Shown here: piece after piece, positions 10,857 to 29,611 of the stretch | How the letters are laid out: each line of letters opens with the position of its first letter | Position numbering within the stretch: position 1 is the stretch's first letter | Virus record (IMG/VR): IMGVR_UViG_3300024256_000018 | Coordinates: 1 to 45,727 of that record | DNA: 45,727 nucleotides | Reading direction: 5' to 3' (one strand) | From: a virus | The notes under the pieces: generated by a model | Databases searched by the model: none | What the model saw: only the letters and a program-made list of their open reading frames with translations | What the model was told of the DNA's origin: nothing | Position numbers and translations under genes: made by a program

Positions 10857-11062
10857 CCACGTAAGTCAAATATTCATAATCTGTTAAACTGCTTAAAAAA
10901 ACTATGTGTTTTATTTACTTCCCGCACAGTGTATATTGCGGCTGAAAAGAAAAAGGAGCGTCAAAAATATGTTTTAATTTCCCTTAGAAAAGTAGAAGAA
11001 TATAATACCCATATTGATGGGTGTTTGTCGTATCAAATAATAAATGAGAAAGGACCCACCGC
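10857..11062 (+). promoter_or_regulatory. Intergenic region between tail and replication modules
   Basis: This AT-rich stretch of 206 bases separates late and replication genes. It holds a hairpin (ACCCAT 11007-11012 with ATGGGT 11017-11022, 4-base loop) and a strong ribosome binding site (AAAGGAG) followed by the minimal frame ATG TTT TAA at 10969-10977. A promoter for the downstream genes probably lies here, but no consensus -35/-10 pair is clear. A GTG-initiated frame from 10929 lacks a ribosome binding site and runs into the next gene. Confidence 0.35.
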
Positions 11063-11440
11063 ATGTCTGACAAGAGATTTATCAATCGCTCAAACGTTAT
11101 TAAGGAGTTCCATAACGCCGGGTTTAAGATCAAACCTGACGCTATAGAATTCTTCATTGGATATTTGGAGAATTTCATTAGTGATTTCTCTCAGATGTTT
11201 GATGATGATTTTAAAGTATTGTCCATGGATGAAATCCAGGAAGGCTGGAATCTTTATTTCCCGGTAGAGGATGATGCAGAAGAGAATGGTGTTGATGAGG
11301 ATACACAAGAAGTTGATGAGCTCGATTATAATGAGTTCGTGAAATTCAAAATGCTTCCTCAGGAATTACGAACCCACATCTTTTCCCTGCATGAATTCAT
11401 TATCGAGGAGGCTAAGATTTATGCCAAACGTCTTAGGTAA
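11063..11440 (+). CDS. Small acidic protein, possible histone-fold-like N-terminus
   Basis: The protein has 125 residues; AAAGGACCC precedes the ATG. Residues 8-64 can be read as helix-strap-helix-strap-helix: RSNVIKEFHNAGF, KIK, then a 25-residue helix from PDAIEFF, then FKVLS and MDEIQEGW. This resembles the archaeal/bacterial histone fold, in which 'AGA-RVS-DA' precedes a long helix and 'TV-AEDI' starts the third. The classic Arg-Lys-Thr loop residues are not conserved. An acidic linker (about 69-90) and a helical end follow. It precedes and overlaps the SNF2 helicase gene. The histone-fold reading is tentative; otherwise the protein is unrecognised. Confidence 0.5.
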   Translation: MSDKRFINRSNVIKEFHNAGFKIKPDAIEFFIGYLENFISDFSQMFDDDFKVLSMDEIQEGWNLYFPVEDDAEENGVDEDTQEVDELDYNEFVKFKMLPQELRTHIFSLHEFIIEEAKIYAKRLR

Positions 11441-13121
11441 ACTTCAACAGAAACCACAGAACACTTTATGGTCCGATGGTGATCATTTATGGCTGAGAGT
11501 TCCATACGCCCAGAGGGGTCAAGCCCAAAGGATTAATGGAGCCCGGTACATGAAGAAACCCGGGGCGTGGAAGATACCCTTATTGCAGTTATGTTTTAAG
11601 ACTGCAGTGGCCCTGTTTCCTCAGATAACTATTGAGCCCGGTACACGGGAATCAATGGACCGATTAAGGACTAAATATCTGGATGTGATCGCAGCCAAGG
11701 ACAGGTCCATGAAGGAACCCAATGAGGGGCTAAGAGATTTCCTCGAACTCCCATTCTTCGATCACCAATTAAAGAACTTTACATTCTATAAGGACCAGAC
11801 CAATTGTGCAGACTTCTCCGAACCCGGGGCTGGAAAAACAATGGTGCAGATTGCCCTTATGAAACACAGGTGGATGACTAAGAAAGCTAATAAGTTTTTG
11901 ATTGTTTGTCCCCTTGCTACTATGTGGAAAGTTTGGGATAAGGATATTAGAAAATTTTGGGGTAAGAATCACCCCATAATTAATGTGTTGGACAAGTCCG
12001 TAAATTATGTTGAATCCGTTCTTACAGCTGGAATGACCGATGGGATTTTCATAATCAATTATGAGAAGACCTGGAGAGTTTTACCCTTGCTCTTAAAGGT
12101 GGGATTTGATATGGTTATCCTGGATGAATCCCAGAGGATTAAGAACCCAACCTCAAAACAAACCAAGGCTTGTTTGAAATTAAATGAGGCCCCGTTTAGA
12201 TCTATTCTCACGGGAACTCCCACCCCAAATAATGAGATGGAAATCTACCCCCAATGGAAGTTCTTAGAATGGCCAATGGTGGGAGATAATTTCTATGCAT
12301 TCCGTGATCGATATTTTGAGCGTGACCCTTACGTAGAATATGTATGGCATGCCCGGGATAACACCAATATTAAACTTAAAGCAATCATAGATGTGTATTC
12401 AGTATCCTGGAAGAAAAAGGATTGCTTGAGCCTCCCACCATTCACCAGTCAGCACCTTGAGTGTTTACCCAATGCCCAACAGAAAAAAACATATAATGAA
12501 ATGGCAAAAGAAATGGTAACCCTCCTGAATGAGGATGCCTATGATGCCAGTATCGTTCTCACCAAAATGTTAAGGTTGTCCCAAATCACATCGGGGTTTA
12601 TCCAGAATACGGATGGGGCTGACTTTCAGGAATTCACACCCAATGCAAAACTAAATCTTTTGATGGAAACCATTAAGGGTATTCCCAAAGATAAACAGAT
12701 TATTATTTGGGCTGTATTCCATAACGATTACCGAGTGATCTCCCAAGCTCTGGAACAGGCTGAAATAACTCACGCAATGTATTATGGTGGGGTATCAAAG
12801 AAGCTGCGCGAAACGGGCTTAAACGAGTTCCTAGCGGGCTCTAAAAGGGTGTTCATTGCAAACCCCAGGTCGGCTGGACTGGGAATCAATCTATCAAATT
12901 CTTCTTACTGCATTCGATACTCCATGAATTACTCTTATGAGGATTATGCACAGAGTGTAGAACGCTTCAATCGCACGGGTCAAAAGTTCCCCATGACAGA
13001 ATACATTTTGATCATGAAGGGGACTATCGATGAGGCCATAGCAAACTCTGTTCTTAAAGAGAAGAAATCAATTAATAATTTCATGACTTCATTCAAGGAG
13101 GTTTATTCTCATGTCCGATAA
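11421..13121 (+). CDS. SNF2-family DNA helicase/translocase with HARP-like N-terminus
   Basis: The protein has 566 residues. The start at 11421 is chosen because GAGGAGG lies about 10 bases upstream; an in-frame ATG at 11391 has no such site. Residues about 10-60 (DHLWLRVPYAQR through WKIPLLQL) resemble the HARP-like domain of SMARCAL1-type annealing helicases. Walker A is EPGAGKT (about 134-140), Walker B is VILDESQ (about 231-237), motif III is LTGTPTPNN (about 262) and motif VI is QSVERFNRTGQ (about 510-520). SNF2 translocases move on duplex DNA and remodel forks or displace proteins. It lies at the head of the replication module and overlaps its neighbours. Confidence 0.88.
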   Translation: MPNVLGKLQQKPQNTLWSDGDHLWLRVPYAQRGQAQRINGARYMKKPGAWKIPLLQLCFKTAVALFPQITIEPGTRESMDRLRTKYLDVIAAKDRSMKEPNEGLRDFLELPFFDHQLKNFTFYKDQTNCADFSEPGAGKTMVQIALMKHRWMTKKANKFLIVCPLATMWKVWDKDIRKFWGKNHPIINVLDKSVNYVESVLTAGMTDGIFIINYEKTWRVLPLLLKVGFDMVILDESQRIKNPTSKQTKACLKLNEAPFRSILTGTPTPNNEMEIYPQWKFLEWPMVGDNFYAFRDRYFERDPYVEYVWHARDNTNIKLKAIIDVYSVSWKKKDCLSLPPFTSQHLECLPNAQQKKTYNEMAKEMVTLLNEDAYDASIVLTKMLRLSQITSGFIQNTDGADFQEFTPNAKLNLLMETIKGIPKDKQIIIWAVFHNDYRVISQALEQAEITHAMYYGGVSKKLRETGLNEFLAGSKRVFIANPRSAGLGINLSNSSYCIRYSMNYSYEDYAQSVERFNRTGQKFPMTEYILIMKGTIDEAIANSVLKEKKSINNFMTSFKEVYSHVR

Positions 13122-15503: not shown

Positions 15504-18422
15504 ATGTCTCGAAATATAATTGAAAAAATAGAATCTAAGATTGATTACCTTGCATTCTATAATGAATATGTTCAAGGGATAAAACCCCTCGGTGATGATC
15601 AGTATATTGGCCAATGTCCCCTACACGATGATGAGAACCCCAGCTTTGCTTTTAATGTAAAGGATGGGCTGTGGAATTGTTTCTCCAATTGCGGTGGTGG
15701 GAATGTTTTCTCATTTCTTGAGAAGAAAGAGAATTTAAGTTCGAAACAAGAACGTGTCCAGTTTCTCTGTAAGAAGTTAGGGATAGAACTAACAGAGGAT
15801 GATTATACACTTGAGGGAAAAATAGAAGAAGATATCTGGAAGAACTGGCACAAATCTTTGGTCGGGAATAAGGCCGTGCTAGATGTGCTTTTACAGAAGC
15901 GAGGTATCACCCTTGAAACCGTGAAGCAATTCAAGTTGGGTTTCTATCGGAATCGATTAACCATCCCAGTGTTTGACTCAGAAGGAGTTTGTAGAAATGT
16001 CCGGCAATATTCTTTCATAGGAAAGAAAGTTGCGAACAAACTTATAAACTATTCTGACGGGTCTGAATACAGTTTTGGGCGTATGAGATTATTCCCAATT
16101 GAAAACGTATTGACCCATAAAAAAATCCTATTGTGTGAAGGTGAACCTGATACCCTCCTAGCAAACCAAATGGGATTCAAAGCAATGACCGTGACCAGTG
16201 GGGCTGGTTCCTGGAACAAAGCCTGGAGTCATAAATATTTTAAAGGCAAACAAGTTTGGATTTGCTTTGATATTGATGCAGCTGGAATGAAGGGTGCGAT
16301 CAGGGTTGCTAAGGCCTTGGCCGGGCTGGCAGACTTCGTCAAGATTGTGGACCTGAAAAAGGTTATGACTTCCCCACCAAGTGGTGACTTCACAGACTTC
16401 TTTTTGACCAACAATAATGATATGGAAACCTTCAAAGAATTATTGGTGAATGCTAAGGAGTATTATGAGGCCCCAGAGATTGGGAAGGAGGTAAGAAATA
16501 AGGAGTTCCGGAAGGTATCCCTCTCGCAGGCGAGTCACGCGAAAAATGCTTTATGTAATATTGAAGTTAAGGCCCTGGTCTCGGGCAAGGATTTTCCACC
16601 ATTTGAAATCCCAAATAAACTCCATATAGAATGTGATGCAGCGGGTGGAGAAAAGATGTGCCCGTTCTGTCCGATGTATACTGTCCCGGGGAATAAGAAA
16701 GATATTTATCTTAAGGAAGAAACCGACCGGGGAAGTCTGCTAAATCTTATTGATATCAAAGATGAATTATTATTCAGGAATATGAGAAAGCAACTTGGGA
16801 TTCCATTCAAATGTGAACGGACCCAAATGAAGATCAAGGACTATATAAATATTGAGGAGTTGAGATTGATTCCTGAAATCGATTTCACCACAGATACCGA
16901 TTATGAATATGTCCAGCAGGTGGCCTATTACGCCGGTCACGGGATTAAGGCGAACCAGGTATATACACTCCAGGGTATGGCCTTGCCAAACCCTAAAACC
17001 CAACAGAGCACACAGATATTTTGGGATGCAGTACCGGCCGTAGATTCGATAGATCTTTTTAAGATGAATGATGAGATTCATGAGCGGTTGAAATTCTTCC
17101 AACCAGCCCCAGGTCAAACCCTTACAGAGAAGTACGATGAACGATATGCGGACATGGAATATGTGTCCGGGATTTACCAAAGAAAAGATATTGCTCTGAC
17201 CTATGATATCGTTCTTCATTCAGCCTTAGAAGTTATGTTTCAAAACAAAAAAGAAAAGGCTTGGATGGAAGCTTTATTGATCGGAGATTCTGGTTGCGGG
17301 AAAACAGAATTGGCCAAAGCAATGATAAGGCATTACGGGGTCGCAGAATTTGTGACTGGAGAATCTACATCGGTTGCAGGTTTGATCGGTGGGTTATCCC
17401 AAACAGCAAAAAGATGGCACATCAATTGGGGTAAGATTCCCCTTAATAATAGGCGTGCATTATTCATTGATGAGATCTCTGGAATGAGCATAGAAGATAT
17501 TGCTTTATTCTCAGGTGTGAGAAGTTCTGGGATTGCTGAATTGACTAAGATAAGGACTGAGAAAACACAAGCCCTTACGAGGAAGATTTGGGTCGGTAAT
17601 CCCAGGCGGAAAGGTAACCTTTCAAGGAACATGATGCAGTACCCTTATGGGATTGTAGCAATACAAGAATTGATCGGGAACTTGGAGGACATTCGCAGGT
17701 TTGATTTTGCCCTCACAGCCCACTCAGAAGAGGTTGACAAAAAGATCTATAATGCTTTAAAAGAACAAGGACGGATTATCGAATACACTGGGGCCTTATG
17801 CCACGAGTTGATCATGTGGTCGTGGTCCCGGAAACCCAATCAAATTATCTTCAGTGCAAAGGCCAATAAGGCCATCCTCAAATACGCCCAAGAGATGGGT
17901 GAGAAATACTATCACGGGATACCAATTGTGGAAGCAGCCGATCAGAGATTAAAGATCATGAGGGGGTCCATATCCGTGGCTGTGATGTTCTATTCTACAA
18001 AGGATGGAACGCAAATAAAAGTTGAGGAAGAACACGTGGAATTTTTCCATGATTGGCTGGAGGAAATTTACAATAAAGATTCCATGAGATACGGTGATTG
18101 GAGTTACCAAGAATTGAGTAAGAAAAAGCTCAAGGACCAGAGTGCAGTTGATCGATTAATCAGGGATGAATTTATTGAAATGCTTTTAGAAGACGATACA
18201 TTCAATCAGGCATCTATGATAGATCTAACCGGGTGGGAACGTGGCCCCGTGAAAGCCATGATCAGTACCTTAAGAAGGAACAATGCGATCAAACGATATG
18301 GGACTTCATTCTACATCAAAACTGATGCATTCATTGATTATCTAAACAGGAGGAAGACAGGTGAGATACAGGTCAACCAAGCGGGCTCAGGTCCAGAGGA
18401 AGAGGAGCCAGCCCCATGGTAA
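15504..18422 (+). CDS. Primase (CHC2 zinc finger + TOPRIM) fused to MCM-like AAA+ helicase
   Basis: The protein has 972 residues. Residues 38-63 hold a primase zinc finger (CPLH, then C59 and C63). The TOPRIM domain follows, with LLCEGEPDT (about 210) and FDIDAAGMKG (about 254). A middle region has a zinc-type CDAAGGEKMCPFC cluster (about 376). The C-terminal half is AAA+: Walker A GDSGCGKTEL (about 594), then TGESTSVAGLIGG as in MCM proteins ('TSG--SSAAGLT'), Walker B LFIDEISGMS (about 652), sensor WVGNP (about 697) and IRRFDFAL (about 730), matching the MCM 'LSRFDL' arginine finger. A winged-helix-like end follows. The protein should unwind the fork and lay primers. The DnaG-type/MCM combination is unusual. 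Confidence 0.85.
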   Translation: MSRNIIEKIESKIDYLAFYNEYVQGIKPLGDDQYIGQCPLHDDENPSFAFNVKDGLWNCFSNCGGGNVFSFLEKKENLSSKQERVQFLCKKLGIELTEDDYTLEGKIEEDIWKNWHKSLVGNKAVLDVLLQKRGITLETVKQFKLGFYRNRLTIPVFDSEGVCRNVRQYSFIGKKVANKLINYSDGSEYSFGRMRLFPIENVLTHKKILLCEGEPDTLLANQMGFKAMTVTSGAGSWNKAWSHKYFKGKQVWICFDIDAAGMKGAIRVAKALAGLADFVKIVDLKKVMTSPPSGDFTDFFLTNNNDMETFKELLVNAKEYYEAPEIGKEVRNKEFRKVSLSQASHAKNALCNIEVKALVSGKDFPPFEIPNKLHIECDAAGGEKMCPFCPMYTVPGNKKDIYLKEETDRGSLLNLIDIKDELLFRNMRKQLGIPFKCERTQMKIKDYINIEELRLIPEIDFTTDTDYEYVQQVAYYAGHGIKANQVYTLQGMALPNPKTQQSTQIFWDAVPAVDSIDLFKMNDEIHERLKFFQPAPGQTLTEKYDERYADMEYVSGIYQRKDIALTYDIVLHSALEVMFQNKKEKAWMEALLIGDSGCGKTELAKAMIRHYGVAEFVTGESTSVAGLIGGLSQTAKRWHINWGKIPLNNRRALFIDEISGMSIEDIALFSGVRSSGIAELTKIRTEKTQALTRKIWVGNPRRKGNLSRNMMQYPYGIVAIQELIGNLEDIRRFDFALTAHSEEVDKKIYNALKEQGRIIEYTGALCHELIMWSWSRKPNQIIFSAKANKAILKYAQEMGEKYYHGIPIVEAADQRLKIMRGSISVAVMFYSTKDGTQIKVEEEHVEFFHDWLEEIYNKDSMRYGDWSYQELSKKKLKDQSAVDRLIRDEFIEMLLEDDTFNQASMIDLTGWERGPVKAMISTLRRNNAIKRYGTSFYIKTDAFIDYLNRRKTGEIQVNQAGSGPEEEEPAPW

Positions 18423-20266
18423 ATATAATTGATATCCGTAAAGCAAATCAGCTCAAAGAAATGGTGGAGTTTTTCATCGGGTGTGGGGAATGCACAATGG
18501 ACCTGGAAACAGAATCTCTGGACTTCCATGATGAGATATTATCTCTGCAATTATTAGCAGCTGACCGGTGCTATTATGTCCCACTGGAATACCTAAATGT
18601 CTTAAGGGAACGGGACCAGGGTGACCAGTTGAATATGTTTGATGGAATCTACAAAGAATTTCTCCCATGGAAGAAAGTTCGGGCTGCAACAAAGAAAATT
18701 ATGGAGCATAAGGATATCAAGAAGATTGCCCATAATATGAAATTTGATTTCAGCTTTTTGATTCACCGAGATATCCATCCTCAAAACTGGTATTGGGATA
18801 CGATGTTAGCAGCTTGGCAACTGGATGAGAACCGCAGATATGGATTGAAAACTCTATATGATCAGGAGTTCCCAACACAAACCAAATCCAATACTTTTGC
18901 AGCCCTTACGAAGAATACAAAATACTGGTTATTGGATTATGAAGATCAGAAAACTTATGCTTGTGATGATGTCCTGAAAACCAGGAGGCTGTGCAGGAAA
19001 CAAGAACCAGAAATCATGGCCCAATCTGATAAGGGTATGGCCTTCTTCGAGCACCAAATGATGGACGTGTGTGAGGTCCTAACTTACATGGGCGATCACG
19101 GTGCATTTATTGATACCCCTTATGCTCTTAAGATGCAACATTTTTATCGGCACCAAACGGAACGATTGGAAAGAATTATTGATCAATATATTACGGCCTC
19201 TGGATATTATGAACCGATCAATATTGATTCAAATCCTCAGCTATGTTATTACTTCTATGATTTCTTAGGATACAAATATTCTGGGGGTAAGAAGGAAAAG
19301 AATATCGATAAGTTTGCACTGCAACATTGGGCCTCAAAAGGAAGCAAATTGGCCAGGGCATTTCTACTGTATAGAAAGACCACAGCACTGGGTAAATTTA
19401 TTGATGATACGAAACCCGGTTCTATCCTTTCAAACCTGAGAGCGGACACCTCGAGAATCCACCCCAATTACAATCAGCATCGTACTAAAGTCCACAGGTT
19501 AAGTGGGTCCAATCCCAACACCCAAAATTTCCCACGTAAAGGGGGTGCAGTGCGCGAGTGTTTCATTGCCCCACCAGGTATGAAGCTGTTGATCGCGGAT
19601 TACTCCCAGATAGAGTTACGGTGCTTTGCTCATTATTCAAAAGATGAAAGATTTAGGTCTGCTTATGTGGGAGATAATCAGATTGATCTCCATGAACAAA
19701 CCAGGGCAAATGTGATCGCATCTGTCTTTGCTCATTTGAATGGGACCGACCAGAGGACCAAGGCCAAGAATGTCAACTTTGGAATCTGGTACGGGTCCAG
19801 TGCTAAGGGGGTCGCATTCCTACTGGGTTGTTCAATTACCGAGGCCCAAATGATTATTGATAACACCGTGGGATACTACCACCAGAACAAGGCTTGGATT
19901 GAGAAGGTTGAGAGATTTGTTCTTAAGAATAAATACGTTAGAAATATGCATGGTGGCTACCGTGATTTCAAGGGAATGAATATCAGTAGCATCGGGATGA
20001 GAAATTTTATGTACCGGGAAGCAGTTCACTTTATTATCTGCTCAACTGCAGCCTGTATTCTTAAAGAGAAAATGATCGAGGTCAGTAGGAAATATCGGAA
20101 GGTCAATGATGTGAATATGTTCCTACAAATCCATGATGAAATTATTGTGGAAGTCCCCGAGAGTTTTGACCCAATGGAAATCGTTTCAATCATGGAAGAA
20201 CCCATCGAGGGTTTCACAATTCCTATGGTTGTGGATTATGATATGAAGGACAGGTGGACCAAATGA
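18416..20266 (+). CDS. polA-like: Family A DNA polymerase with 3'-5' exonuclease
   Basis: The protein has 616 residues and overlaps the primase-helicase gene by 7 bases. Proofreading motifs are DLETESLDF (Exo I, residues 29-31), IAHNMKFDFSF (Exo II) and YACDD (Exo III). Polymerase motif A is LLIADYSQIELR (about 392-403), motif B is RTKAKNVNFGIWYG (about 446) and motif C is IHDEIIVEVPE (about 571). The length fits an exonuclease-plus-polymerase protein without a 5'-3' nuclease domain. It is the replicative polymerase of the phage. Confidence 0.95.
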   Translation: MVNIIDIRKANQLKEMVEFFIGCGECTMDLETESLDFHDEILSLQLLAADRCYYVPLEYLNVLRERDQGDQLNMFDGIYKEFLPWKKVRAATKKIMEHKDIKKIAHNMKFDFSFLIHRDIHPQNWYWDTMLAAWQLDENRRYGLKTLYDQEFPTQTKSNTFAALTKNTKYWLLDYEDQKTYACDDVLKTRRLCRKQEPEIMAQSDKGMAFFEHQMMDVCEVLTYMGDHGAFIDTPYALKMQHFYRHQTERLERIIDQYITASGYYEPINIDSNPQLCYYFYDFLGYKYSGGKKEKNIDKFALQHWASKGSKLARAFLLYRKTTALGKFIDDTKPGSILSNLRADTSRIHPNYNQHRTKVHRLSGSNPNTQNFPRKGGAVRECFIAPPGMKLLIADYSQIELRCFAHYSKDERFRSAYVGDNQIDLHEQTRANVIASVFAHLNGTDQRTKAKNVNFGIWYGSSAKGVAFLLGCSITEAQMIIDNTVGYYHQNKAWIEKVERFVLKNKYVRNMHGGYRDFKGMNISSIGMRNFMYREAVHFIICSTAACILKEKMIEVSRKYRKVNDVNMFLQIHDEIIVEVPESFDPMEIVSIMEEPIEGFTIPMVVDYDMKDRWTK

Positions 20267-20442
20267 GAAGAATAATAATTAGGATTATTTTGGGATTATT
20301 TCTGACAGCCTTTGTGGTAATTGAAACTGGTCCTTGGACTGGGGCTGCAATTGCCTTCCTTTTAATCCGAGCGGAGTTAGTAGATTATTCAATTTATAGG
20401 TTCTACAAATCAATAAGGGATGCCGCAGAAGGGGATGCATGA
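20263..20442 (+). CDS. Small membrane protein, 59 aa
   Basis: The gene starts at the ATGA overlapping the polymerase stop and encodes 59 residues. Two hydrophobic segments (IIIRIILGLFLTAFVVI and WTGAAIAFLLIRAELV) follow a positively charged start, predicting one or two membrane spans. The role is unknown. It has the general shape of a small holin, but its place between replication genes does not support that. Confidence 0.55.
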   Translation: MRRIIIRIILGLFLTAFVVIETGPWTGAAIAFLLIRAELVDYSIYRFYKSIRDAAEGDA

Positions 20443-20786
20443 TGGAAAAATACTACGATAAGAATGGACATGCAGAGCACTATGATTCCCATAGAATTAA
20501 TGCTCTCATTCAGATGGAACAAATTTGGGGAACGGAAAAGCTCATGACCCATTATGAGATGACTGTTTTCGAATATAGATTCAGACTGGGTTTGAAAGAC
20601 CCGGACCTGGTTGATCAGGATTTGATTAAGATCAAATGGTTTGAAACTACTATCAAATATTTGAGGGACAAAATTGATAACGGGGATGAAGTTGATGGTC
20701 TGGATTTCGGACCCCACCCACTCCCCGGGAAACTGCAAGCAATGCAACTAAATAATAACAATGATAAAGGAGAAAAAGTCAAATGA
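20439..20786 (+). CDS. DUF3310-like protein
   Basis: The protein has 115 residues and overlaps both neighbours (ATGATG at the start, ATGA at the end). The central part, with FEYRFRLGLKDPDLVDQDL followed by IKIKWFETTIKYLRDKI, resembles the DUF3310 family of small phage proteins (a 'K-iiRwg-K-dp-eDl-KI-wfet' pattern), often found near nucleotide metabolism genes and sometimes annotated as nucleotide kinases without proof. It begins the modification operon. Confidence 0.55.
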   Translation: MMEKYYDKNGHAEHYDSHRINALIQMEQIWGTEKLMTHYEMTVFEYRFRLGLKDPDLVDQDLIKIKWFETTIKYLRDKIDNGDEVDGLDFGPHPLPGKLQAMQLNNNNDKGEKVK

Positions 20787-21700
20787 AGAAAGCGAAAGCT
20801 GGTTCCAAGTACGTGAATGAAATCACCCCAGGTGAAGTCCTTGAAGTGCGGAAGAAATTACCCATGGATTTTCACTGGAGGCATCTGAGAAAACAAATCC
20901 CATTTCTGGGTGAGATTTTCTGTGTTGCCCAGAAGAAATATTATTCAGCCTTGTGCTCCAAAAAGTACCGCTACAAGAATGCTGATAAATCAATCGCTCA
21001 TCTGGATGAAGGTCACTTCCAGGGATACTCATTTGCGATCGAAGAATTCACCAAACCCGGTGACTGGGTTCTTGACCCATTCGTGGGCTCGGGCACTGCA
21101 ATTATCGAGGCCCACCACAAGGGTAGGAATGCAGTGGGAATCGAGATCGAGTACAATGAATTAGTTGAACTGAATCTTAAGCACATGATGGAGGGATATC
21201 CTAAGAAAACCCGGCACAATATTCTGATCGGGGATGCACGAGATCAGATTAAGAAAATCCGTAGGAAATTTCCTCTGGTTGTGATGGGTTTCCCTTATCC
21301 GATCATAGCCGGTGGTATCACTTCCGATAAGCCGATGAGACCCAAGGGTGACCCTCGTGGGAATCAAGTTTATGATCACGTTGATTCATTTGGAAATATG
21401 AAATTGCCTCAGTTCTTAGATGAGATGGTTTCCCTGTTTGGGGACATCATTACAAAGACTGAAGTGGGTGGTCGGATTGTTACGATTATCAAGGACCCGA
21501 TCAACAACAAGGCCCCATTCATGCTTCAGAAGAAAGTGGTTGATGCTGTCCTGGAGAATCACCCTGGTCTGGAGATGGAATCATTCTTCATTCATCATCA
21601 CATTCCTGAGACCTTACGGATTAGATCTTACAGGAAAAGATGGCCAGAGGTTATGATTCCTGTGTACCAAGTTGGACTGGTTTTAAGGAGGACGAAATAA
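20783..21700 (+). CDS. Amino-methyltransferase-like protein with altered catalytic motif
   Basis: The protein has 305 residues. Residues 98-106 are DPFVGSGTA, the SAM-binding motif I of N4-cytosine/N6-adenine methyltransferases, followed by GIEIEYNE (motif II, acidic residue for the ribose) and GDARD (about 150-154). Motif IV, normally (D/N/S)PP(Y/F), reads here as GFPYP at about 169-173, with Gly and Phe in place of the catalytic Asp/Asn/Ser and first Pro. The protein may be a methyltransferase with changed chemistry, a DNA-binding relative, or one acting on an unusual base. It overlaps its neighbours by a few bases. Confidence 0.7.
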   Translation: MKKAKAGSKYVNEITPGEVLEVRKKLPMDFHWRHLRKQIPFLGEIFCVAQKKYYSALCSKKYRYKNADKSIAHLDEGHFQGYSFAIEEFTKPGDWVLDPFVGSGTAIIEAHHKGRNAVGIEIEYNELVELNLKHMMEGYPKKTRHNILIGDARDQIKKIRRKFPLVVMGFPYPIIAGGITSDKPMRPKGDPRGNQVYDHVDSFGNMKLPQFLDEMVSLFGDIITKTEVGGRIVTIIKDPINNKAPFMLQKKVVDAVLENHPGLEMESFFIHHHIPETLRIRSYRKRWPEVMIPVYQVGLVLRRTK

Positions 21701-22530
21701 TGAAAATCTACCCCAACGCTTCAGTTGCCATTCTTGAGAGTGGCAAGGCCCTAAATAATCTGGGCATGAAGACTGAATCTCAACAGTGGCAAGGGAAGGA
21801 TGGAACACCCGATACGATCGAGATTATGGGCCACTCATTCAAATGCCCTATGCCACAATTAGCAAAGAGTCTTGCGGTCCTTACTGAGGCCGATTTGCCC
21901 TGGGCTGAAGATCACTTCCAAGAACGGATATCTGGAGCCCCATCCAACCCAGGAGAATCATATAAGAGATGGCCCTATTATGTGAACAAGACCAGGGAAG
22001 ATGAAGCATACAAACCACAGGGAACTTTCACCCATACCTATATGGAACGCTATTGGCCCCGTGAAGCTCACGCTGAGGGCTGGCCTAATAACCATAAGGC
22101 CATAGGGGTAAGACGTGGCATACGGTATGAATACGGAGACCTAAACGATGTTGTGGCTCAGTTGCAGAGCAATCCCTCAACGCGCCAGGCGTACTTGCCC
22201 GTGTGGTTCCCAGAGGATACCGGTCAAATCCATGGGGGAAGATTACCGTGCAGCCTGGGTTATCTCTTTATGATTAGGGAGGGATTCATGCACGTTCATT
22301 ATTACATCCGTTCGTGTGATTTCATCCGCCATTTTCATAACGATATCTATCTTACTGTGAGACTGGTTCAACACATGATCGAATGTATTAACCCAGAGCT
22401 GTTCCCGGGATTCCTTCACATGCATATTGGGTCATTCCATGTCCTGGCCACAGACAGGGTTGCGATGAAGAAAAAGATAGCAGCATTTCAAGAAAAATAT
22501 AGCCGAAGAATTACGGAGGGATTATCATGA
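21700..22530 (+). CDS. Thymidylate synthase-family enzyme, dCMP hydroxymethylase-like
   Basis: The protein has 276 residues; the ATG at 21700 overlaps the upstream stop (TAATG) and follows AAGGAGG. The active-site Cys is C184 in RLPCSLGYLF. The phosphate-binding RSCD is at 204-207. The position of the pyrimidine-reading Asn of thymidylate synthases (eight residues after RSCD in 'GLPFNI') is D215 here (HFHNDI). In phage T4 dCMP hydroxymethylase an Asp at this position makes the enzyme prefer dCMP over dUMP. His247 matches the conserved 'G-THLY' His. The likely product is hydroxymethyl- or methyl-dCMP. The substrate is inferred from the residue change. Confidence 0.75.
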   Translation: MKIYPNASVAILESGKALNNLGMKTESQQWQGKDGTPDTIEIMGHSFKCPMPQLAKSLAVLTEADLPWAEDHFQERISGAPSNPGESYKRWPYYVNKTREDEAYKPQGTFTHTYMERYWPREAHAEGWPNNHKAIGVRRGIRYEYGDLNDVVAQLQSNPSTRQAYLPVWFPEDTGQIHGGRLPCSLGYLFMIREGFMHVHYYIRSCDFIRHFHNDIYLTVRLVQHMIECINPELFPGFLHMHIGSFHVLATDRVAMKKKIAAFQEKYSRRITEGLS

Positions 22531-23663
22531 AAATCTTAGGACTTACATCTGGTATCGGGTCCATGATGATTGGGGCTCGAGGCAAGCATAAAATCCTCGG
22601 GAATATTGAGTGGAGGAAATACTATCACACTGGTACTTTCGAAAACAATTTCCCAGGTTCATTTATGGTTCATAAGATGGAAGATGTGCCAGAGAAAATC
22701 AGACCGCAATTGGAAGGGGTTGATCTAATTATTGGTCACCCAGAATGTGGGAACTTCTCAAACCTGCACACAACTAAACCCTGCAACAATGCCATGGACA
22801 TTCCCTTGTTCATGGATGTGTGTAAAGAATTGAGGCCGAAGTTTTTCGTTCTGGATAATCTCCCAAAATCTTTGCTGGCTGTGCCAATGAAGAAATGGGT
22901 CCATGAGTTCCCAGATTACAATATCGAATTCCAATATATTTCTAATTTTCATTATGGAAATACTCAGAAGAATCGGAAACGATTATTCATCATTGCTTCC
23001 CTAAAAGAATTGAAATATTTATTCCGCCCCGGGGAAGTGGAACACGATATGAAATTTTGGGATGTGATTAAGGATTTACCCAACAAGGCAAACAGACCCG
23101 CGATCAATCACGACCACCTGAAACCAGAGGACCCCATGGTGAATTTCTCTCCTCATTATTTTGGATATGCCAGAGGGAAGACTATGACCTGGGCTCAGTT
23201 CACAAAACGGATAGAAAAGAATGTGGACAAAAGCAACAATATTATGTACACAAACTTAAAGGGAGAGAGGAGAATCAAGATCGGGTTTCGTGTGATCACA
23301 TTAGATAAATATGCCCCAACCTTAACAGGGCAATCGATGTGTTATAGGGCTGATACATTCCAGCCTTTCACGATACGTGAGCGTGCCCGTATACAAGGCG
23401 TGCCCGATGACTTCATTTTCTATCCCCTCAAACCGGATATTAGAGAGCGTGCTATCCTGGTCAAACAGACCGGGAAATGTATGCCCATTCAGTTCTGTAC
23501 TTTTCTTGTGAATCAGATTGCAGGTCACCTCAAAGGTGTGAAGACAAGGGCATCCGGGAAACGCTTTCTTAAGTACCCGGAATTTATGTTAGAACAATTC
23601 GATGAACTGGCACAGGAAGTTCTATTTTTAGATGAGGAGGAATCATCATGTGTGGGCTCTTAA
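22527..23663 (+). CDS. Divergent cytosine-C5 DNA methyltransferase
   Basis: The protein has 378 residues and overlaps the preceding gene (ATGA). Motif I is LTSGIGSM (about 6-13), motif II has E28 (NIEW), and motif VIII is QKNRKRLFIIA (about 147-157). Motif IX, RERARIQGVPDDF, lies in the C-terminal part. The catalytic Cys is C74, but motif IV is HPECGNFS instead of the usual 'PPCQ-FS', and motif VI is LDNL instead of 'ENV'. These changes touch residues that contact the flipped cytosine, so the substrate or the group transferred may differ from a standard methyltransferase. It could protect DNA or start a hypermodification. Confidence 0.75.
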   Translation: MKILGLTSGIGSMMIGARGKHKILGNIEWRKYYHTGTFENNFPGSFMVHKMEDVPEKIRPQLEGVDLIIGHPECGNFSNLHTTKPCNNAMDIPLFMDVCKELRPKFFVLDNLPKSLLAVPMKKWVHEFPDYNIEFQYISNFHYGNTQKNRKRLFIIASLKELKYLFRPGEVEHDMKFWDVIKDLPNKANRPAINHDHLKPEDPMVNFSPHYFGYARGKTMTWAQFTKRIEKNVDKSNNIMYTNLKGERRIKIGFRVITLDKYAPTLTGQSMCYRADTFQPFTIRERARIQGVPDDFIFYPLKPDIRERAILVKQTGKCMPIQFCTFLVNQIAGHLKGVKTRASGKRFLKYPEFMLEQFDELAQEVLFLDEEESSCVGS

Positions 23664-24979
23664 TGATCAGAGGAAATTCGATACCCGTTAAGGATTTTCT
23701 TATGAATCATCGTGGGATAGAAAGGAGGGGTTTTCAGGACGAAAATGTGGAGATGATTCACAACCGATTACCCTTGCAAACGAGGCTGGGTGATGAGTGG
23801 GGTGGACCAATTGAAATACAAGGTGGACATTTCCTTTTTGTTGGTGAGATTTTTAATCATCCACAAGAGTGGGAGAATGATGTTGAGTACCTTCAATATT
23901 TCTTTAATGACCCAGACTGGATGGACAAATTAGCCCATACAGATTGGGATGGATTCTGGGCGATTGTTGTTTATCAACATGGGGTCACTTATACCTTTAC
24001 CGACCCCTTAGGAAAGAAGCAATTGTACTACGATCATCATGGGAATCTTTGCTCTGAAATCAAACCACTTTTGAATGGGCAAGTACTCATCTCACAATTC
24101 GATTATGAGAACACCCAGGCTGGTCGCTTAACCCCATTCGATCGCATCTATAGAATTAAGCCAGGACAGCTGATGGTCATGACCCCGGATAAGGATTTCA
24201 AATCAATTGGAAACCTCTGGAACTTATATCAATTTCCAGAATCCGGGGTGACCCAGCACAGGACATTACGAGGGTTGATTAAAATATCTGTTCGTAGGAG
24301 GATGATCAACCTGCGAGACCGGAACACAGTCTTCGTTTCGGGTGGGTTGGATTCCACTATCATCATCCAGTGTTTGGCTGAGATGGACCACCTTGACAAA
24401 TGTGATTTCTTAACCATAAAGAATGGTGAGGATGATCAGTATATTGAGGCCGTGGAATCGCACTATGGAATACGTGTTCGAAGGATTGATTACAACCCCT
24501 TCATCAAGCCAGAAGATATCATGGAAATCTATGAGCATCCGATTGAACTCGGCAGCCTTATGGCCCAGGTGAATTTGGTAAGAGAAACCCAGGGCTCAGT
24601 GATCTATACTGGGGATGGGGCTGATGAATTATTCTCTGGATATTCAAGGGCACAGGAATGGGATTCACAGGAGTACGATGTGTTCACAGAAATACCCTAC
24701 TATCATATGATTCGATTAGATAGAATTGGGATGTCAGTGACCAAGGAAATACGATCACCATTCCTGGGTCACGAAGTTGTATGCAGAGCCCTCAACATGG
24801 GGTATGACGTTAGGAGGGGCAAGGCTTGTTTGAAAGACTCCTTCGCTGATATACCTGAGGTCATAATCAATCGTGCTAAGCGACCCCTTAGAGACCCAAA
24901 TATGGACAGTGATAGGGCACAGCATATCAAACATTGGGAGCAAACATTCAGGAGGGTTTTTTCAAATGCCAAAAACTAA
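23648..24979 (+). CDS. Asparagine synthetase-like glutamine amidotransferase
   Basis: The protein has 443 residues; GAGGAGG precedes the ATG inside the upstream gene, which it overlaps by 16 bases. Cys2 is the N-terminal nucleophile of a class II glutaminase. The ATP pyrophosphatase (PP-loop) is VSGGLDST (about 230-237), followed by YTGDGADELFSGY (about 320-332) and RSPFLGHEVV. Asparagine synthetases are usually 500-620 residues. The oxyanion-hole 'NGE' is VGE at 65-67, so glutamine hydrolysis may be altered. Such enzymes adenylate a carboxylate and convert it to an amide. In this operon the acceptor could be a base modification rather than free aspartate, which is inference. Confidence 0.8.
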   Translation: MCGLLMIRGNSIPVKDFLMNHRGIERRGFQDENVEMIHNRLPLQTRLGDEWGGPIEIQGGHFLFVGEIFNHPQEWENDVEYLQYFFNDPDWMDKLAHTDWDGFWAIVVYQHGVTYTFTDPLGKKQLYYDHHGNLCSEIKPLLNGQVLISQFDYENTQAGRLTPFDRIYRIKPGQLMVMTPDKDFKSIGNLWNLYQFPESGVTQHRTLRGLIKISVRRRMINLRDRNTVFVSGGLDSTIIIQCLAEMDHLDKCDFLTIKNGEDDQYIEAVESHYGIRVRRIDYNPFIKPEDIMEIYEHPIELGSLMAQVNLVRETQGSVIYTGDGADELFSGYSRAQEWDSQEYDVFTEIPYYHMIRLDRIGMSVTKEIRSPFLGHEVVCRALNMGYDVRRGKACLKDSFADIPEVIINRAKRPLRDPNMDSDRAQHIKHWEQTFRRVFSNAKN

Positions 24980-25394
24980 TATAGATAATGTGTTCATGGA
25001 AATCGCCCACTCAATTGGGAAGTTGAGTTATGCCAAAAGATTGCAGGTGGGCTGCATTGTTGTTAAGGATGGAAACATCTTATCCATGGGGTATAATGGA
25101 ATGCCCTATGGTTTTGAAAATGAATGTGAATTCGAGGGGACACCTGAGCATAAGAAGTTGAGGACGAAACCCGAGGTTCTTCATGCAGAATCAAATGCAA
25201 TATCCAAGTTAGCCCGGTCCACCCAATCATCAGATGGGGCTGATCTATATGTAACTGATAGCCCATGTTTCGATTGTGCAAAATTGATCATTCAATCGGG
25301 TATTAAAGCAGTCTATTACCGAGGAGAATATCGGATAAAAGATGGGCTGGTATTATTGGAAGATGCCGGCATAAAAGTTGAGAGGGTAGTATGA
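24966..25394 (+). CDS. dCMP deaminase
   Basis: The protein has 142 residues; an AGGAGG lies upstream of the ATG at 24966, which overlaps the preceding gene by 14 bases. MGYNGMPYG (41-49) is the substrate-loop signature of deoxycytidylate deaminases. The zinc site is H73-A-E75 plus C101 and C104 (SPCFDCAK). The enzyme converts dCMP to dUMP, supplying dTMP synthesis or removing unmodified dCMP. Placement next to the hydroxymethylase-like enzyme and dUTPase makes a nucleotide-pool module. Confidence 0.9.
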   Translation: MPKTNIDNVFMEIAHSIGKLSYAKRLQVGCIVVKDGNILSMGYNGMPYGFENECEFEGTPEHKKLRTKPEVLHAESNAISKLARSTQSSDGADLYVTDSPCFDCAKLIIQSGIKAVYYRGEYRIKDGLVLLEDAGIKVERVV

Positions 25395-25846
25395 TGAATA
25401 AGTTCCTAAAGTTCACCAAAACCAAACCAGTCAAAAGCCCTGATAGGGGAACAAAACTTTCGGCTGGAATCGATTTCTTTATCCCGGATGATTTTAAGGA
25501 AATGAATCTTGGACCTGGTTCATCTATCTTGATTCCCTTGGGCATACATGTCCTCCCACCCCAGGGTATGGCCTTGGTGTTTTTCAATAAGTCTGGGGTA
25601 AGCACAAAACTTAATCTGGATGTTGGTGCCTGTGTTATTGATGAGGATTATCAAGGAGAAATCCATGCACACCTATTCAATTACTCAAACGATTTTCTGG
25701 CTGAGCTGAGGCCGGGAATGAAGATTGTCCAAGGAGTATTGCTTGATGTAGGATACGGTGATGTGTTTGAAATGAAAACCCTTGCTAAGTTATACCCGAA
25801 AGAATCCAAAAGGGGTTCAGGAGGTTTCGGGAGTACAGGACAATGA
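25391..25846 (+). CDS. dut-like: dUTPase (trimeric Dut family)
   Basis: The protein has 151 residues and overlaps the deaminase gene by 4 bases. The five dUTPase motifs are visible: SAGIDFFIP (motif 1), NKSGVSTK (motif 2), GACVIDEDYQGEI (motif 3), MKIVQGV (motif 4) and RGSGGFGSTGQ (motif 5). The enzyme hydrolyses dUTP to dUMP and pyrophosphate, keeping uracil out of phage DNA. Motif 2 has Lys for the common Arg, which is seen in other family members. Confidence 0.92.
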   Translation: MMNKFLKFTKTKPVKSPDRGTKLSAGIDFFIPDDFKEMNLGPGSSILIPLGIHVLPPQGMALVFFNKSGVSTKLNLDVGACVIDEDYQGEIHAHLFNYSNDFLAELRPGMKIVQGVLLDVGYGDVFEMKTLAKLYPKESKRGSGGFGSTGQ

Positions 25847-26238
25847 ATGAAACTGTATTCAAAAACAGGTGGGTGAAATTAGCGAATGCCCTGGGTGGTT
25901 CTTATTTCTTTAAGTTTCATTCTAATATATACACCCAAGGGAAACCAGATGTGATCGGGGCCTATTGTGGCCGACCTTATGGTTTAGAGTTTAAGGTGGT
26001 GGATTTACCCAAAAGGGATTCCACGATCGTAGATTTGATGAAGGGTGTAACTGATTTACAAAAGCGTGAACTTAAAAGAATGAAAGAGGGTAGCTGGGAT
26101 GCATACGTGGTAGTTTTAGTGAGGCCCACGAATGATATCCTTTATTTGAAATGGGATTACGATCAGACCTTTAGAAGGGATAAGTACAACCCCATGTCAT
26201 TCCCTGTTCCTAAGCACTGGTTCCCAACTAATTTCTAA
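25843..26238 (+). CDS. VRR-NUC / PD-(D/E)xK-type nuclease
   Basis: The protein has 131 residues and overlaps dut by 4 bases. QGKPDVIGAY (D36) and GLEFKV (E49, K51) form a PD-(D/E)xK active site, and LQKRELKRM (Q73) supplies the QxxxL motif of VRR-NUC and Holliday-junction-resolvase-like nucleases. Such phage enzymes cut branched DNA during recombination or before packaging. It is the last gene of the operon. Confidence 0.75.
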   Translation: MNETVFKNRWVKLANALGGSYFFKFHSNIYTQGKPDVIGAYCGRPYGLEFKVVDLPKRDSTIVDLMKGVTDLQKRELKRMKEGSWDAYVVVLVRPTNDILYLKWDYDQTFRRDKYNPMSFPVPKHWFPTNF

Positions 26239-28990: not shown

Positions 28991-29611
28991 ATGGATAACA
29001 ACTTTCAGGTTCGTAAAGCAGTAGGGGCTGGATGGGATGTTATTGATACTCGCTTAGGTGAGTTTGGTACATCAGTAGATTGGACAAATTTAAAACGAGA
29101 TGCGGTTGCCCGGTGTTCAAAGTGGAACAAGGTCAACCCACAACCTAAAACTAAGACAAGTACAACAACCAAACCGAAAGGGGCTAAAATGCCTATTAAG
29201 AAAGTAACAAAAAGACCAGTAGCAAAAAAAGTTGCAGCCAAAAAAGAAACAGCTGTAAAAGAAACACCAAAAGCAAAACTTCCTGCACGTAAAGAAGTCC
29301 CAGCCAAAAAGAAGGCTGCAGTGAAGAAAGCCGCAGCCAAAAAGGTTGCAGCCAAAAAAGCAGCCCCAAAGAAAAAGATCGCTGCAAAGAAAGCAGCTCC
29401 AAAGAAAGAAAAGGGTATCACCAAACATCAGTTTGTTATTGATCTCCTGAAACGTAAAGGCGGAGCAACCCGTCCACAGATTGAAGAAGCCATGATGAAG
29501 AAATTTGGTTCCTTCTCTGCTGGTTCTTTGAACATCGAATTCTCTACGATCGCCAAAGAGTTCAACCTGGAACGAATCAAGGCCGAGGTTATCTACAAGA
29601 TCACTGATTAA
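28991..29611 (+). CDS. Histone H1-like Lys/Ala/Pro-rich protein with C-terminal winged-helix-like domain
   Basis: The protein has 206 residues. Residues 1-45 form a small folded N-terminus. Residues about 60-145 are a run of KKAAPKK/KKVAAKK units like histone H1 or bacterial HctB/AlgP tails. Residues about 148-206 (KHQFVIDLLKRKGG through IYKITD) look like a small helical DNA-binding domain with a 'GGATRPQIEEAM' helix-turn-helix pattern. The ribosome binding site is weak (CTTAGGA); a later ATG at 29188 has a better one (AAGGGGC) and could give a shorter form. It probably binds or condenses DNA. Confidence 0.65.
   Translation: MDNNFQVRKAVGAGWDVIDTRLGEFGTSVDWTNLKRDAVARCSKWNKVNPQPKTKTSTTTKPKGAKMPIKKVTKRPVAKKVAAKKETAVKETPKAKLPARKEVPAKKKAAVKKAAAKKVAAKKAAPKKKIAAKKAAPKKEKGITKHQFVIDLLKRKGGATRPQIEEAMMKKFGSFSAGSLNIEFSTIAKEFNLERIKAEVIYKITD

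Follow-up and report, generated by a model that had tools for sequence, protein, structure and literature searches.

The viral DNA considered here, IMG/VR record IMGVR_UViG_3300024256_000018 (45,727 nucleotides, analysed whole and hereafter called the window), carries a seven-gene operon that we judge rather probable to be a cytosine-hypermodification operon of an uncultured tailed phage. The core of the gene set is a pair, a thymidylate synthase-like (TS-like) gene and a gene for an AsnB-like glutamine-dependent amidotransferase. The TS-like enzyme is predicted with good confidence to convert deoxycytidine monophosphate (dCMP) to 5-hydroxymethyl-dCMP, and the AsnB-like enzyme likely acts in the same base pathway. 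A gene for a variant DNA cytosine-C5 methyltransferase (C5-MTase) lies between the two in the window, but judged from the sequences collected it behaves as an optional cassette and not as part of the core. An earlier note on this DNA had described seven overlapping genes in one operon. This is borne out by strand and by family matches: all seven genes lie on the + strand, head to tail and with short overlaps, and the nuclease gene (25843-26238) lies just past 25846, where the operon of the earlier note ended. The note had also proposed a search for the same gene set in other phages. The set does recur, in many uncultured phages, and the operon is therefore more than chance. In the openly licensed literature, we found no published description of TS together with AsnB in phages. 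The genes and sites of the operon are:

20783..21700, + strand: amino-methyltransferase-like (amino-MTase-like) protein of the N6_N4_Mtase family (4e-12); motif I DPFVGSGT kept, catalytic tetrapeptide changed to GFPY(P)
21700..22530, + strand: TS-like protein, probable dCMP 5-hydroxymethylase (Thymidylat_synt 1.2e-7; phrog_160 4e-29)
22249-22251, + strand: codon of the TS-like catalytic Cys; Asp177-equivalent codon at 22342-22344
22527..23663, + strand: variant C5-MTase-like protein (DNA_methylase 6e-24)
22737-22748, + strand: HPEC (residues 71-74) of the C5-MTase-like protein; motif VI Asp110 at 22854-22856, motif X Lys317 at 23475-23477
23648..24979, + strand: AsnB-like glutamine-dependent amidotransferase (Asn_synthase 6e-24)
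23651-23653, + strand: Cys2 of the AsnB-like protein; PP-loop SGGLDS at 24338-24355; acceptor signature ELGS..AQ plus DSQ..D
24966..25394, + strand: dCMP deaminase (phrog_174 9e-52); zinc motifs HAE and PCxxC intact
25391..25846, + strand: dUTPase (phrog_135 2.5e-29)
25843..26238, + strand: small endonuclease-like protein (phrog_2165 2e-6; phrog_93 3e-6)

Residues of the TS-like and AsnB-like enzymes

The substrate of the TS-like enzyme is suggested by its residues. Asp stands at the position of E. coli TS residue 177, and the catalytic Cys is kept, in 77/77 TS-like rows from the loci (contigs are repeated among these rows) and in 9/9 cultured-phage relatives. At position 147 these proteins carry Ser or Thr, and ThyA, taken as the control, has Asn at 177 and His at 147. 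According to passages of PMC5175136 and PMC6400193, Asp at the 177 site marks enzymes with cytosine substrates (T4 dCMP hydroxymethylase, MilA and BcmA), and Asn marks TS and the SPO1 hydroxymethylase of deoxyuridine monophosphate (dUMP). In a selection for phage DNA with modified cytosine, positions 177 and 147 were the most telling ones, and the modified contigs mostly had Asp177 (passages of PMC8670742). When the TS profile was compared with the PDB, the best matches were an entry named only thymidylate synthase (6e-14) and CMP 5-hydroxymethylase (5.6e-12). In the relative L061, ThyX is encoded beside the gene set (Thy1 3e-49) and supplies another source of deoxythymidine monophosphate (dTMP), so the TS-like enzyme there need not make dTMP. 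The earlier interpretation is supported in part, in that these residues point to a route modifying cytosine rather than thymine. As for the gene itself, its start ATG at 21700 is preceded by AAGGAGG, and the longest open reading frame (ORF) begins at 21640.

The AsnB-like enzyme has an N-terminal Cys glutaminase and a PP-loop. C2 and SGGLDS are invariant in 14/14 aligned sequences; of 92 distinct AsnB-like proteins, 88 contain SGGLDS without change and 86 start with MCG, the other six being frames untrimmed to a start. The predicted model of the protein (mean predicted local distance difference test, pLDDT, of 77) finds its best fold matches in human and E. coli asparagine synthetase (PDB 6gq3 and 1ct9). 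The Asp-binding segment T..R..TP is not found; the proteins read xGS....Q instead (GS 92/92; Gln 90/92, Asn 2/92), followed by GDG[AS]DE and then by a segment around DSQxSD. The equivalent of this acceptor segment in E. coli AsnB is DVTTIRASTP, which we take to be Asp-binding. The idea that the AsnB of big phages is an ordinary asparagine synthetase was set aside, because these proteins have the same acceptor signature and TS is present in the largest contigs.

An AsnB-like protein was also observed inside a 7-deazaguanine cluster, in Achromobacter phage Motura (L187, MN094788.1, 4395-9146), where its gene is flanked by one annotated as queC and one for a tRNA guanine transglycosylase. AsnB may here have been recruited to the modification of phage DNA for a third time.

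Recurrence of the gene set and the optional C5-MTase

Linkage between these genes was found in searches that started from the MTase. A nucleotide pattern built on the MTase motif of GHPECGN type, and blind to AsnB, identified 17 contigs. AsnB is present in 16 of the 17 loci. The remaining locus, L016, breaks off within the MTase gene; in a longer stretch of the same contig (L064) AsnB follows the MTase, so all 17 contigs have AsnB. A profile search with the MTase family gave 27 loci, partly on the same contigs, with AsnB in 27/27 and TS in 24/27; the three without TS lie on contigs of 5.2-10.4 kb. A single-protein MTase query had no match in viral contigs, whereas the motif and profile searches did match. 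By comparison, neither AsnB nor a TS-like gene was found in control loci with ordinary PPCQGF C5-MTases (0/80 each, out of at least 80 such loci), which are shorter (mean 8.8 kb, 48/80 of at least 8 kb, versus a mean of 13.5 kb for the 27 test loci).

The AsnB profile search yielded 283 relatives, the best 80 of which were kept and, with the MTase-linked loci, make up the 92 distinct proteins. Many of these contigs are fragments, some are represented by more than one locus, and the set contains near copies, as with the five loci of one type around L013/L014. TS is nearby in 50 of the 92 and the MTase in 30, 28 of which also have TS; the two MTase-linked AsnB without TS sit on contigs of 5 and 10 kb. 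Another 22 have TS but no MTase nearby, and 40 have neither. A TS-like gene lies elsewhere on 7/27 big-phage contigs without TS nearby, including 5/5 contigs above 240 kb. These genes were found by searching with a member of the TS-like family instead of PF00303, which is too weak for this family in big phages; its curated cut-off was met only by other, ThyA-like or cut genes. A genome scan gave one locus, on a contig of a Myxococcaceae metagenome-assembled genome; because this contig equals in length one of the viral contigs analysed, we infer no host from it.

All 40 AsnB without nearby TS or MTase have a P-loop kinase-like gene in the locus. The P-loop genes are weakly kinase-like (thymidylate kinase phrog_761 at 2e-5 in L086 and 4e-9 in L058; no PHROG match in L067). 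In L058 (5982-6554), L067 (7474-8016) and L109 (7446-7997), such a gene either overlaps the beginning of the AsnB-like gene or directly adjoins it. The AsnB-adjacent P-loop genes are of more than one sequence type and belong to phages of different size.

The C5-MTase comes and goes around this core. A PF00145 gene was found in 0/32 whole contigs that had been selected because they carry AsnB with no MTase close by (23 of them with TS, 9 from big phages), and the same search recovered the gene in 19/19 records that have it. When presence of the MTase is mapped on a tree of 71 AsnB proteins plus an outgroup, 10 changes are required, and well supported branches force at least 8 of them. Close relatives illustrate this: L013 has TS, deaminase, MTase and AsnB and L073 has TS, deaminase and AsnB, and in another close set L121 has TS, MTase and AsnB and L122 and L124 have TS and AsnB. 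The AsnB nearest to that of the window is found in L066, where TS and a GFPYP-type amino-MTase are present; no C5-MTase was found on this contig, which at 22 kb may be incomplete. TS and AsnB themselves often overlap or abut. Since 22/92 AsnB have TS in the vicinity without the MTase, AsnB is independent of the product of the MTase, and since the presence of the MTase switches at least 8 times on the AsnB tree, the MTase cannot make a carboxylate for every AsnB-like enzyme.

Variant methyltransferases and the surroundings of the operon

The C5-MTase-like protein of the window reads GHPECGNFS around the catalytic Cys and LDNLPK in motif VI. The earlier note had pointed to altered motifs in three enzymes, and these hold up here, in Asp177 of the TS and in the GFPYP of the amino-MTase (NNPPY in many relatives). 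Two more changes in the C5-MTase are absent from that note: it has no motif I Phe, and motif X carries Lys. The predicted model (mean pLDDT 80) has the fold of a DNA cytosine-C5 methyltransferase. In VIA, its best match is a prophage MTase (3g7u; Z 24.7, root-mean-square deviation 2.7, 287 aligned), and both M.HaeIII (1dct) and CmoX (8yf3) follow with Z 23.0. CmoX is thus, for this predicted model, one among many near structural matches and not the nearest.

We aligned 30 distinct variant proteins, after five MTase rows had been removed as duplicates; the enzyme of L168 is spread over two frames. All 30 retain the catalytic Cys, which is preceded by Glu (25/30) or Asp (5/30). Asp replaces Glu in motif VI in 30/30, the motif I Phe is changed to Thr, Ile or His in 30/30 (Thr in the window protein), and the motif X position that aligns to Arg350 of CmoX is Lys in 30/30 (Lys317 in the window). 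Each hallmark of ordinary C5-MTases (motif I Phe, Pro before Cys, motif VI Glu, motif X Asn) occurs in 0/30. Among 77 ordinary viral C5-MTases, aligned by the same procedure, motif VI Glu is found in 77, motif I Phe in 75 and motif X Asn in 59, the other 18 motif X rows being gapped or unaligned; Pro before Cys (77/77) is fixed by the search pattern. A text pattern had suggested 12 Lys in motif X among 79 ordinary enzymes, but the alignment of 77 shows none in a real motif X, and the one Lys row is a C-terminal misalignment.

A charged residue at this position is known from CmoX. As described in passages of PMC12783734, CmoX makes 5-carboxymethyl-dC with carboxy-S-adenosylmethionine (carboxy-SAM) from CmoA, and CmoY, an Asn-synthetase homologue, adds glycine. 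Arg350 of CmoX stands at Asn304 of HhaI, and the engineered carboxymethyltransferase M.MpeI N374K has Lys; the survey for CmoX in the same passages required SPPC and Arg350. The variant MTase does not belong to CmoX by these marks, having Lys and not Arg, HPEC and not SPPC, and Asp and not Glu in motif VI. What a member looks like is seen in Streptomyces phage TurkishDelight (L186, NC_073473.1, 5137-9155), whose gp122-125 are a ParB-like protein, a CmoX homologue, an AsnB with glutaminase and a CmoA homologue, gp123-125 being the full set. Its CmoX homologue has 37% identity to SpCmoX, SPPC and Arg at the 350 position, and its CmoX-linked AsnB reads EIGWACLQ and GEGSDELW, unlike the acceptor signature of the AsnB-like proteins.

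N6/N4 amino-methyltransferases are marked by motif I and a catalytic [NDS]PP[YFW]. The amino-MTase-like protein of the window has the former and lacks the latter (GFPY); its relatives read NNPPY in many cases, NGTPYP in others and TGFPYP in L066. Matches to it also occur in 9/80 control loci with ordinary C5-MTases, so the presence of this gene alone says little. In L131, a single open frame of 755 residues (10022-12289) joins a variant C5-MTase at the N-terminus to an NNPPY amino-MTase at the C-terminus. Because of this fusion, the C5-MTase-like and amino-MTase-like enzymes probably act together.

Elsewhere in the window, the large genes also lie on the + strand, and replication, packaging, head and tail genes are present. 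A family-A DNA polymerase gene (18416-20266) precedes the chain of overlapping operon genes, and the endonuclease-like gene at its end is probably a neighbour outside the pathway. The earlier note had seen no nucleotide kinase. In agreement with this, seven kinase-like queries from relatives gave no match in the window at E <=1, and the P-loop text pattern occurs in one ORF of more than 100 amino acids, the primase/helicase. A megablast search of 15504-26238 against cultured phages gave no match. A Histone H1-like protein is encoded at 28991-29611 (NF038053 match of 5e-8, below its cut-off).

A candidate pathway, its rivals and known systems

We propose that the TS-like enzyme makes 5-hydroxymethyl-dCMP from dCMP in a first step, while dCMP deaminase and dUTPase would drain unmodified dCMP and deoxyuridine triphosphate (dUTP) towards dTMP, as in T4. 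In a second step, to which the linkage points, the AsnB-like enzyme would use ATP and glutamine-derived ammonia to add a nitrogen group to the product of the first. No carboxylate is in sight, and 5-aminomethyl-cytosine, formed by displacement of an activated hydroxymethyl oxygen by ammonia, is therefore taken as the simplest product; that it is the exact product is doubtful, and an amide on a carboxylate from another source would be the alternative. In a third step, in some phages including that of the window, the variant C5-MTase-like and amino-MTase-like enzymes may tailor the already 5-substituted cytosine in DNA, the C5-MTase-like enzyme keeping the C6-attacking Cys within a changed charge pattern around the base. 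The modification likely serves evasion of host nucleases. The earlier note had imagined a modified cytosine made partly as nucleotide and partly on DNA. Its nucleotide step is favoured by the Asp177 TS-like enzyme beside dCMP deaminase and dUTPase, and steps on DNA are probable, but the C5-MTase did not keep its place in the core. Only tentatively do we put forward the whole: an undescribed base, a cytosine with a C5 amine or amide made by a hydroxymethylase and an Asn-synthetase-type amidotransferase, plus a non-methylating C5-MTase-fold enzyme that would act on 5-substituted cytosine by its C6-attacking Cys and the new Lys.

Several observations weigh against this pathway. The PP-loop departs from SGGLDS in 4/92 AsnB rows. 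To our knowledge, PP-loop/AsnB-type enzymes act on a carbonyl or carboxyl carbon, so the activation of a hydroxymethyl oxygen would be a reaction new to this class. The motif X Lys suits a carboxymethyl donor better than a hydroxymethyl substrate. No TS-like gene was found on 20/27 big-phage contigs, all 20 of which are below 165 kb and may be fragments. Furthermore, in tblastn the TS-like protein matches 172 cultured-phage records (70 with at least 80% of its length covered, and the best matches with 44-45% identity; weaker ones may be plain TS), and four AsnB queries match there at only 22-28% identity, which indicates that TS works without AsnB elsewhere.

Lys317 together with AsnB makes CmoX/CmoY tempting as a direct explanation. 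The variant C5-MTase would then use host carboxy-SAM to make C5-carboxymethyl-cytosine in DNA, the AsnB-like enzyme would amidate it to 5-carbamoylmethyl-cytosine, and the TS-like enzyme would serve another purpose. Lys at the Arg350-aligned residue in every variant, as in engineered M.MpeI N374K, agrees with this, and so does the AsnB-like neighbour, since the glutaminase-bearing CmoY-type cluster is predicted to use ammonia (its protein was not obtained soluble); E. coli CmoA alone is able to supply carboxy-SAM (passages of PMC12783734, for M.MpeI, the cluster and CmoA). We nevertheless rank this route lower and regard it as unlikely, because AsnB occurs without any PF00145 gene in the 32/32 whole contigs described above and CmoA (TIGR00740) was found in 0/18 and 0/32 phage contigs, many of them fragments, with the positive controls S-B43 and TurkishDelight matched. 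In addition, the variants lack motif I Phe, motif VI Glu and SPPC, the AsnB signature differs from that of TurkishDelight, and a C5 that is already hydroxymethylated should be closed to carboxymethylation.

Phages often carry metabolic and nucleotide-pool genes, and 40/92 distinct AsnB proteins occur in big phages without TS or MTase nearby. Both facts would fit unrelated housekeeping genes in one early operon, with the AsnB-like enzyme for supply of asparagine or another metabolite, the C5-MTase as an anti-restriction methylase and the TS-like enzyme for the deoxynucleotide pool. This is quite unlikely given that AsnB and TS-like genes are each missing from the 80 control loci, that the AsnB acceptor site is without the asparagine-synthetase pattern and that the MTase changes occur together in 30/30 proteins. 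MnmE/MnmG trap a methylene-folate-derived intermediate with ammonia on tRNA, and by analogy the AsnB-like enzyme might mainly deliver ammonia to the TS-like enzyme, whose exocyclic-methylene intermediate would be trapped by ammonia and not water to give 5-aminomethyl-dCMP directly. The frequent overlap or abutment of TS and AsnB is consistent with this, and T4 dCMP hydroxymethylase does pass through an exocyclic methylene (passages of PMC8670742); however, the ATP-binding PP-loop is kept (SGGLDS in 88/92) and would be needless for pure ammonia delivery, which makes this proposal quite unlikely.

The proposed pathway, from hydroxymethylation to amination or amidation, resembles known systems in part. 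The hydroxymethylcytosine pathway of T4 comprises an Asp hydroxymethylase, dCMP deaminase, a pyrophosphohydrolase and a kinase. The gene set described here likewise has a TS-superfamily Asp enzyme, dCMP deaminase, dUTPase or a MazG-type pyrophosphohydrolase and, in some relatives, a kinase-like gene. Unlike in T4, an amidotransferase adjoins the hydroxymethylase, and no glycosyltransferase was found among the window proteins searched (a part of its ORFs). The dCMP hydroxymethylase and carbamoyltransferase that give 5-carbamoyloxymethyl-dC (passages of PMC8670742) are similar in pairing an Asp177 TS-like enzyme with a nitrogen-group transferase in uncultured phages, but here an AsnB-type amidotransferase replaces the TobZ-type carbamoyltransferase. 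With the CmoX system of Synechococcus phage S-B43, the gene set shares the C5-MTase fold, the charged residue replacing motif X Asn and the link to an Asn-synthetase homologue; DNA of CmoX-system phages has modified cytosine, which is predicted for the variant set. In contrast to SpCmoY, the AsnB-like protein keeps the glutaminase domain and has another acceptor site, and in contrast to the CmoX system, the partner that stays constant here is the TS-like enzyme, and AsnB is also found where there is no MTase.

Cultured phages (Muddy, PMBT14 and Gordonia phages) have the same TS-like family and the same Asp, with 36-45% identity among the rows listed. In 9/9 of their loci, a conserved second gene lies beside or near the Asp177 TS-like gene (e.g., L007 6042-6935, L008 6144-6932). 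A profile of this partner, built from eight of the nine loci (all but L002), had no match at E <=1 among the ORFs of 132 sequences, the window and the AsnB loci included, which were taken as stretches and not as whole contigs. An Asn_synthase gene was found in none of the nine cultured TS-like records; S-B43, the tenth record searched, has one. The AsnB-like gene seems to take the place of the partner gene, which may be an alternative second step. By eye the partner looked TS-like, but the profile comparison gave a probability of 1.3% and we make no claim.

In summary, a wide group of uncultured phages carries a probable cytosine modification whose enzymes are open to expression and assay, and TurkishDelight, a named phage with a host, is useful for the glutaminase-type branch of the CmoX system. 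Lys instead of Arg hints that nature has a second way of retuning C5-MTases to a new group donor at this residue. The MTase-fold enzymes concerned have a consistently rebuilt active site and would have been missed by the CmoX survey, which required SPPC and Arg350 (passages of PMC12783734). Such new base chemistries might find use in DNA labelling and could reveal how phages escape from nucleases.

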